Notes under the pieces: model-generated
The model's database searches: none
Told to the model about the DNA's origin: nothing
What the model saw: the letters and a program-made list of their open reading frames with translations, nothing else
Part shown: in pieces, positions 35,499 to 37,449 of the stretch
How positions within the stretch are numbered: position 1 is the first letter of the stretch
How the letters are laid out: every line of letters starts with the position of its first letter
Origin: Syntrophus sp. PtaU1.Bin005
Lineage (GTDB): Bacteria; Desulfobacterota; Syntrophia; Syntrophales; Syntrophaceae
Assembly (NCBI GenBank): GCA_002067745.1
Contig: MVRU01000021.1
Span: forward strand, 1-38,934
DNA: 38,934 nucleotides
Reading direction: 5' to 3'
Translations under genes and position numbers: made by a program

Positions 35499-35882
35499 TT
35501 ATTTAACTTCGACGGTCCCGCCGACTTCTTCAATCTTCTTCTTGATGTCAGCGGCCTCATCCTTGGATACCGCTTCCTTGATGGGTTTTGGTACACCTTC
35601 CACCAGGTCTTTCGCCTCTTTCAGGCCAAGGCCCGTGATGGCCCGGACAACCTTGATGACCTGGATTTTCTGATCGCCGAATCCCGTCAGGATCGCATCG
35701 AATTCCGTCTTTTCTTCGGCTGGCGCCGCCGCCTCCGCCGGGCCCGCAACCGCGGCAACCGCTACAGGGGCCGCCGCCGACACACCGAATCTCTCTTCCA
35801 GTTCCTTGACCAGCTCGGACAGTTCCAGAACGGTCATCCCTTCAATGAATTTCACGACATCTTCTTTTGTAATATCCGCCAT
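35499..35882 (-). CDS. rplL: 50S ribosomal protein L7/L12
   Basis: L7/L12 (bL12), 127 residues, the multicopy stalk protein that recruits translational GTPases. The N-terminal dimerisation domain contains [20 protein letters not shown], the hinge is the alanine-rich [20 protein letters not shown], and the C-terminal factor-binding domain contains [20 protein letters not shown] and [16 protein letters not shown]. It is acidic, as expected. The gene follows rplJ by 51 bases. Confidence 0.98.
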
Positions 35883-35933: not shown

Positions 35934-36458
35934 TTAATTGCCCTCTTCCTTTTTAGCTCGATATCCATCCAGCACCCGGACAAACCCTCGCGGTACAGCG
36001 CTGAGTACATTGACCAGCTGCGTCTGAACGCCCACCATTACAGAAAGCATCTTGGCAAGCAGAATCTCCCTGCTGGGAAGTTCCGCCAACGCCTTCAGCT
36101 GCTCAATCGTAATGACCTTATCGCCCAACATGCCGACTTTAAGCTCCAATTCTGCATTCTTCTTCGCGAAATCAGACAGAATCTTACTCGGCTCCACGGG
36201 ATCGCCATAACTGAGAATCAAAGCCAACGGCCCTTTGAAATGGTCCTGCAATGCCTCAAGGGAAGTATCCCGTGACGCGATGTTCAAAAGGGTGTTTTTT
36301 ACAACTTTCAACTCCGTGTTAGACTTCCGCAGGTCATTTCGCAGGGCTGTCATCTTGGCGACATCGATTCCTCTGAAGTTTGCCAAAACGGCCAGCTTGA
36401 ATGACTTGACCTTCTGGTGGAGCTCAACGGCAACCTGCTCTTTCGTTCTCCGATCCAA
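35934..36458 (-). CDS. rplJ: 50S ribosomal protein L10
   Basis: L10/uL10, 174 residues, the stalk base that carries L7/L12 dimers and autoregulates its operon. It shows MDRRTKEQVAVELHQKVKSF, AVLANFRGIDVAKMTALRND, LRKSNTELKVVKNTLLNIAS and a C-terminal helix for L12 binding. The start is TTG at 36458, with AGGAGG six bases upstream. The 292-base region before it contains an L10 leader, an extra hairpin and a U-tract, consistent with autogenous control. Confidence 0.97.
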   Translation of the reverse strand: MDRRTKEQVAVELHQKVKSFKLAVLANFRGIDVAKMTALRNDLRKSNTELKVVKNTLLNIASRDTSLEALQDHFKGPLALILSYGDPVEPSKILSDFAKKNAELELKVGMLGDKVITIEQLKALAELPSREILLAKMLSVMVGVQTQLVNVLSAVPRGFVRVLDGYRAKKEEGN

Positions 36459-36477
36459 CCTTAACCTCCTTTCTCGC

Positions 36478-36500
36478 CCGCCACGCGATGGGCATGGCGG
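36478..36500 (-). promoter_or_regulatory. Hairpin just upstream of the rplJ ribosome binding site
   Basis: On the minus strand CCGCCATG, loop CCCATCG, CGTGGCGG forms an 8-bp stem with one G-U pair. It ends seven bases before the AGGAGG of rplJ. It could set the accessibility of that site together with the L10 leader; there is no direct evidence of function. Confidence 0.45.
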
Positions 36501-36545
36501 AATAAATTATCTTCCCGGGAAATCAGAACCTGTTACTAAGGAATT

Positions 36546-36690
36546 AAAAAAATAGGAGAACTGAGCAGCACACAGGAACATACACACAAACTTATGGCAC
36601 TGAAGCATGACTCTGCTTCACTCAATAGCTATCTCGGCAGGCCGATGCGCGCATCGTTTAAACCCTGTACCTGCTGTCTCAGATTTCTCT
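36546..36690 (-). promoter_or_regulatory. L10 leader (ribosomal protein autoregulatory RNA) with alternative pairing
   Basis: The 5' strand AUCUGAGACAGCAGG (36684-36670) and the 3' strand CCUGCCGAGAU (36641-36631) match the L10 leader found before rplJL in many bacteria: CAGCAGG pairs with CCUGCCG, flanked by the GA-rich kink-turn and an AUCU/AGAU outer helix. Between them lies the palindrome GATGCGCGCATC. A further hairpin, TGAAGCA/TGCTTCA, is at 36601-36620. Alternatively the 5' strand (36664-36689) can pair with 36555-36576 in four blocks of five base pairs, right before a run of seven U (36546-36552). The two folds exclude each other. The part nearer rplA (36691-36750) shows no clear element. 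Confidence 0.78.
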
Positions 36691-36750
36691 ATTTAGTGGT
36701 ATGATTTCACATCTGCCTTGAACTGATTAAAACAGAAGTAATTTGAATTC

Positions 36751-37449
36751 TTAAAGATTTCTCAAATCCAGCGGATCGACCCTCACCCCGGGTCCCATCG
36801 TCGAGGAAACCGCAACCCCTTTGATATAGGTTCCCTTGCTGGTGGCGGGTTTCAACTTGACGATCATTTCCATGAGAGCCTGAATGTTTTCCATCAGCTT
36901 CTCCGGGCCAAAGGATACTTTTCCCACCGGGCTGTGGACGATTCCTGCCTTCTCCACCCGGAATTCGACTTTACCCGCTTTGACATCCCTGACGGCCTGG
37001 GCGACATCGAAGGTCACCGTCCCCACTTTCGGATTAGGCATCAATCCCCGGGGGCCGAGAATCTTCCCGAGCTTACCGACATTCCCCATCATATCGGGTG
37101 TTGCGATCACACGGTCGAATTCAAGCCATCCCCCCTTGATCTTTTCGATGTATTCATCGGATCCGGTGTAGTCGGCTCCCGCGTCCATGGCTTCCTTTTC
37201 CTTCTCGCCCTTCGCAAAAACCAGAACCCGCACCGATTTCCCCAATCCGTTCGGCAGAACGACGCTGCCCCGGACCATCTGATCCGCATGGGCCGGGTTC
37301 ACACCGAGGCGGACAGCGGCCTCGACCGTTTCGTCAAACTTCCCCCTTGCAGAACTCGTTACAAGTTCCAGGGCTTCGGAAAGCGTATAGCGGTGTCCCG
37401 CCTCTACCTTCTCTTTCGCAGCTAGATATGTCTTTCCCCTTTTTGGCAT
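36751..37449 (-). CDS. rplA: 50S ribosomal protein L1
   Basis: L1/uL1, 232 residues, forming the mobile L1 stalk that moves deacylated tRNA out of the E site. It contains [60 protein letters not shown] and the C-terminal [20 protein letters not shown]. The start is ATG 37449, with GAGG nine bases before it. L1 often represses its operon through a 23S-like mRNA site; I could not identify one in the 144-base gap to rplK, though that gap has a small CCTGAA/TTCAGG hairpin. Confidence 0.97.

Follow-up and report, generated by a model that had tools for sequence, protein, structure and literature searches.

The leader of rplJ in the stretch of Syntrophus DNA analysed here (38,934 nt, hereafter the window) probably acts as a three-strand switch, by which the L10(L12)4 complex would control translation of rplJ and, presumably, of the co-regulated rplL. 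The predicted outcome is likely autogenous translational repression with the normal sign. The leader is located on the minus strand between rplA (36751-37449) and rplJ (35934-36458). The local gene order, tRNA-Trp...nusG-rplK-rplA-rplJ-rplL-rpoB-rpoC, is the usual one; genes were named from sequence and order. The relevant features are:

36663-36689, minus strand: proximal strand of the long helix, overlapping the L10 site (22-pair duplex; swap tests)
36631-36684, minus strand: predicted L10(L12)4-binding hairpin (Rfam RF00557 match, local minimum free energy fold, stems kept in relatives)
36556-36577, minus strand: distal (switch) strand with two alternative partners, the L10-site strand and the rplJ translation start (computed pairing)
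36546-36552, minus strand: U7 tract, read as part of the sequestering stem and not as a terminator tail
36538-36568, minus strand: 5' arm of the predicted start-sequestering stem, comprising the lower switch strand and U7 (minimum free energy fold of 36425-36600)
36465-36472, minus strand: Shine-Dalgarno (SD) sequence AAAGGAGG of rplJ, conserved in leaders of the order
36435-36471, minus strand: 3' arm of the sequestering stem (SD, UUG, rplJ codons 1-8)
35934-36458, minus strand: rplJ (L10), open reading frame with UUG start at 36458-36456; relatives have the same start and SD
35499-35882, minus strand: rplL (L7/L12), open reading frame identified from sequence and gene order

In the proposed mechanism the distal strand would pair with the proximal strand as long as free L10 is lacking. 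This long helix would represent the ON state, with the L10 site melted, the rplJ start open and translation on. Free L10(L12)4 would bind and hold the kink-turn hairpin, which would be the first structure to fold during transcription. The proximal strand would then be unavailable, and the freed distal strand could pair with the SD, the start codon and the first codons (36435-36471), shutting translation off. Thus, translation and not transcription would be the main output in the window. On the computed pairings, both helices are present, mutually exclusive and coevolving across families. In the window, the unbound fold is favored over the L10-held fold by about 9-13 kcal/mol; therefore, early or tight binding of the hairpin by L10 is required. 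As to the kinetics of the switch, which we infer, a race between the folds is plausible, since the hairpin is transcribed first.

The comparison covers relatives of the window's genome within Syntrophus and among other members of the order (records named Syntrophus, Syntrophaceae and Smithella). rplJ leaders were taken from 96 genomes of the order and a few named records, and the 89 distinct leaders with an L10 motif form the set used within the order. A further set of 28 leaders represents 20 families outside the order.

An L10-binding motif in the rplJ leader, as claimed by the first-pass annotation, is indeed present. It is situated directly upstream of rplJ-rplL, and its hairpin contains GACAG..GG / CC..CCGAG and an unpaired UAA. 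The outer stem is formed by AUCU (36684-36681) and AGAU (36634-36631) and the C-stem by GCAGG (36674-36670) and CCUGC (36641-36637); further parts are a GAGACA internal loop, UUUAAA (36662-36657) and an apical GAUG..CAUC hairpin. We infer that L10 itself binds here. The Rfam model RF00557 (L10_leader) matches 36537-36701 with 26.7 bits (E 0.014). Since this score is below the curated gathering threshold of 44, the leader of the window is classed as L10-type but not as a formal member of RF00557, and the current Rfam model does not include it. In the order, the gathering score is exceeded in only 1 of 99 genomes, though most carry the leader. Hence, the current model under-detects the leaders of this order. 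The stems are conserved and compensated in relatives. The C-stem is paired in 100% of the 89 leaders, including one GCGGG/CCCGC double change (L012). In the outer stem, 83 leaders have G-C and 2 have A-U, which fits AUCU/AGAU of the window. The motif is not recognisable in L007, L050 (f4) and L074 (one f7 genome), nor in L141/L145/L148/L149 (f29) and L136 (f23). Several of these motif-less leaders have an rplA-rplJ gap of only tens of bases, and they are apparent losses of the switch. The leader is absent from some families of the phylum.

The long helix of the window connects 36663-36689 with 36556-36577 by 22 pairs at -27.9 kcal/mol, using the segments GAGAA/UUCUC, CUGAG/CUCAG, CAGCA/UGCUG and UACAGGG/UCCUGUG. 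A helix of 20 pairs between 36664-36689 and 36555-36576 had been described before; its presence is confirmed, whereas its extent had to be corrected. The helix belongs to the minimum free energy fold of 36459-36750 (z -2.15). It dominates the unconstrained ensemble, with an expected number of about 20 formed pairs. When the downstream sequence was shuffled 2000 times with its dinucleotides kept, 17 shuffles reached -27.9 kcal/mol. Judged from the window sequence alone, the helix is therefore uncommon but not extreme, which is suggestive and not decisive. The CAGCA/UGCUG middle is paired in the long helix of the window and breaks the L10 C-stem, and the GUC in GUC/GAC of the L10 site is the same GUC that the long helix uses. 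Because these bases are shared, the L10 hairpin and the long helix exclude each other, as had been assumed earlier.

In nearly all of the 89 leaders the proximal consensus AAGUCnGAGACAGCAGGUACAGG faces a distal CCUGUAU...UUCUCnGACUU, with duplex energies mostly from -17 to -37 kcal/mol. Most leaders form a near-continuous duplex of about 20 bp; internal loops break it in most families, and its middle pairs poorly in many. In a sequence-only alignment, pairing reaches 85% in the outer part, where 60 cells carry two-sided changes, and 89% in the inner part, where 44 do. Controls in which the partner strand was slid along the alignment reached at most 53% and 37 cells for the outer part and at most 62% and 27 cells for the inner part. 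In a swap test, the proximal strand of each family was combined with its own downstream region or with those of other families (20000 permutations). For 17 families of the order the energy was -25.4 kcal/mol with the own region and -22.2 ± 0.45 kcal/mol with permuted ones, and for 20 families outside the order -19.6 and -16.5 ± 0.57 kcal/mol. The own value was matched in 0 of 20000 permutations in either set, and both results stayed at 0 of 20000 after composition correction. Outside the order the strands diverge widely, for example to GUCAAAGACAGCGGG/CCCUCUGGCUUUGAC in L119. At the level of column pairs, covariation with a tree-aware null yielded zero pairs with E below 0.05, because substitutions are few and ancestry is shared. 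The covariation check suggested earlier is thus positive for the helix as a whole and negative for single column pairs. Taken together, the swap tests within and outside the order argue that L10 leaders across much of the phylum have preserved the long helix. The earlier view that a helix of this length is unlikely to be a coincidence is upheld by its conservation and by the swap tests across families. In L011 and L098 about 90 nt, with TGAGACTCAAATTTCAAAAACG...GTTGAAATTTGTAAGTC as inverted ends, are inserted immediately ahead of the distal strand; the long helix persists on either side of the insert.

When the distal strand is free, 36538-36568 is predicted to pair with 36435-36471, forming about 31 pairs over the SD, UUG and codons 1-8. 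Folding with and without a constrained L10 site, as recommended by the first-pass annotation, gave the corresponding result: imposing the L10 hairpin on the window reduces the unpaired fraction of the SD from 61% to 21%. In whole-leader folds the SD accessibility falls by more than 0.1 in only 36 of 89 leaders. In the 89 leaders, the predicted cost of opening the region from -16 to +16 is 13.3 kcal/mol when the distal strand is left free and 8.2 kcal/mol when it is blocked; if equally long stretches elsewhere are blocked instead, the cost is 13.4 kcal/mol. On blocking the distal strand the cost falls by at least 2 kcal/mol in 71 of the 89 leaders and rises in 0. Composition accounts for part of the start sequestration, as 3.2 of the 5.1 kcal/mol remain when the distal strand is shuffled. 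The real distal strand exceeds its shuffles at the family level (p 5e-4). In the window's own genus the excess is only modest, and L013 shows none.

The pairing of the distal strand with the start was examined by the same swap test. Within the order the permuted combinations matched the own ones in 4 of 20000 cases (241 of 20000 after composition correction), and outside the order in 1 of 20000 with and without correction. A first test restricted to sequestration of the SD gave zero signal in the window's genus. With the target extended to codons 1-9, the start of the coding sequence is the target in f1, f3, f7, f9 and others, and the SD is the target in f2 (CGGCCUC:GAGGCUG), f10 and f16. In L142, L143, L156 and L159 (f70, f35, f24) the SD region contains a sequence nearly identical to the L10-site strand. 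By eye, AAGACAGUAGGGG of the L10 site and AAGACAGAAAGGGG of the SD region in L142 both match CCCCUUCUGUCUU. One strand thus alternates, by computation, between the ON helix and the SD/start, and the distal strand appears to be the stretch that controls the predicted accessibility of the rplJ start. Translational control had been listed earlier as one of several alternatives; computed accessibility and coevolution of strand and start make it the best-supported role of the helix. Several f7 genomes (L025-L032) carry a hairpin repeat, GGGGACACCTTGC(C/T)GCAAGGTGTCCCC, between distal strand and SD, near the SD.

The first-pass annotation had combined the long helix and U7 to a long-range terminator that L10 would prevent, i.e. 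a positive feedback. A helix of 22 pairs close to a U tract indeed suggests such an arrangement, but this reading is almost certainly wrong. The distance between helix and U7 is 3 nt (C 36555, U, A) and not two as noted before, and the loop would comprise about 85 nt. The tract is not conserved within the genus, and the three relatives that are closest have U5, UAUU and UUU in its place; the consensus of the order after the helix is only GACUUUC. A promoter/terminator scan of 36300-37000 found 0 terminator-like sites. A scan of the window for longer hairpins gave only a long irregular stem-loop of 69 nt, with CUA between the stem-loop and U7. Helix and U7 as a terminator were rejected on the variation of U7 in relatives and the negative terminator scans. 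With the distal strand free, U7 is predicted to lie inside the stem over the translation start, so the sign would be that of ordinary autogenous repression and the inverted logic is dispensable. Transcription attenuation of the B. subtilis type, in which L10 changes termination in the leader and the long helix would act as an antiterminator or arise as a by-product, has more in its favor and is nevertheless unlikely. It is the mode used by B. subtilis (PMC4538822). Leaders of f2 hold the L10 hairpin, CCGAGACUCG:CGGGAAUCGG and AACGG..CCGUU-U7 in this order, and L056 of this family matches RF00557 at 44.2 bits with the terminator stem included. Leaders of f18 and some of f3 have a hairpin and U-run just upstream of the distal strand. 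In the window, the competing structure of such an attenuator is available in the form of the long helix, but no intrinsic terminator was detected in the leader, and many families have none. The terminators predicted in other leaders precede the distal strand, and the long helix can form there only once the terminator has been passed. Moreover, attenuation does not explain why distal strand and translation start coevolve.

A coexistence of both helices within one extended L10 site is very unlikely. In this case the outer part would close the structure and the inner part would form a pseudoknot with the hairpin loop, which would suit the two conserved halves flanking an invariant L10 stem and the poorly paired middle in many families. 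The paired CAGCA/UGCUG of the window, which breaks the C-stem, and the GUC needed by both GUC/GAC and the long helix are incompatible with this arrangement, and the complementarity to the translation start would remain unexplained. It is extremely unlikely that the duplex serves mainly as an RNase III processing or stability element. Its near-continuous length of about 20 bp in most leaders would be suitable, but internal loops interrupt it in most families, and the mimicry among L10 site, distal strand and translation start would have no explanation. 23S rRNA, wanted for a comparison of this mimicry, was not found in the assembly of the same genome as searched. Two further ideas were dropped. 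GUUCUCUGA in the distal strand resembles boxA; a boxA-like antitermination signal was rejected, since f2 and f10 lose the sequence yet keep the complementarity. A leader peptide starting at AUG 36581 was set aside as well, with no SD-like sequence upstream of the short open reading frame and ends that differ in relatives. This frame (MFLCAAQFSYFF..., 36507-36581, minus strand) spans the distal strand; its first residues are common to the genus, probably due to the RNA pairing.

The three-strand translational switch may be only one version of a more general wiring. In f2 (29 genomes; L056, L072, L080 and others), CCGAGACUCG:CGGGAAUCGG would compete with AACGG..CCGUUUUUUU upstream of the translational switch; the attenuator-like part comes first, followed by distal strand and SD. 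This sister family seems to hold both terminator and translational switch, i.e. two layers of L10 control. We give about even chances to a phylum-wide and probably ancestral L10 translational switch, in which L10 site and translation start resemble each other and one strand serves either, with the terminator of f2 added upstream. Outright copies of the L10-site strand at the start occur in families such as f70, f35 and f24. Among complexes of ribosomal proteins, L10(L12)4 was the first for which repression of its own mRNA was demonstrated. If correct, the switch provides a concrete model for translational repression by L10 bound far upstream. Dozens of natural variants display the connecting strand and its coevolution with both partners, so that a few point mutations would suffice to test the mechanism. 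Within one order, the same sensor hairpin would be wired to translation, termination or apparently both.

In translational riboswitches a strand toggles between an ON helix and an SD-hiding helix (anti-sequestor and sequestor). The proposed switch likewise uses one toggling strand, but its effector is a ribosomal protein complex and its ON helix destroys the effector's own binding site. In the literature searched, with most subscription journals outside it, the arrangement was not found described for this phylum. For E. coli an SD-sequestering rearrangement had been proposed, not established (PMC4538822, introduction). A 2024 review calls the mechanism of L10 repression in E. coli unresolved because a long distance separates the L10 site from the ribosome-binding site (PMC10931766). 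The E. coli rplJ leader and, as predicted, that of the window both use a distant L10 site to repress translation. The long helix in the form described for the window was not detected in E. coli (shuffle fraction 0.57). Binding of L10(L12)4 in B. subtilis stabilises an anti-antiterminator at the expense of the antiterminator, and the terminator can form (PMC4538822). The window shares with the B. subtilis rplJL leader the protein-binding motif (kink-turn, UAA) and a set of three structures, namely an L10-bound one, a competing one that permits expression and one that blocks it (PMC4538822). The first-pass impression that the arrangement differs from B. subtilis is therefore only partly correct: the three-structure logic is the same and f2 also seems to carry a B. 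subtilis-like attenuator, whereas the output is predicted to be translational in most of these leaders. Unlike the B. subtilis terminator, the third structure in the window is predicted to cover the SD and start. Thus, the new element proposed here on computational grounds is that SD/start sequestration replaces the terminator in the logic of the L10 leader.
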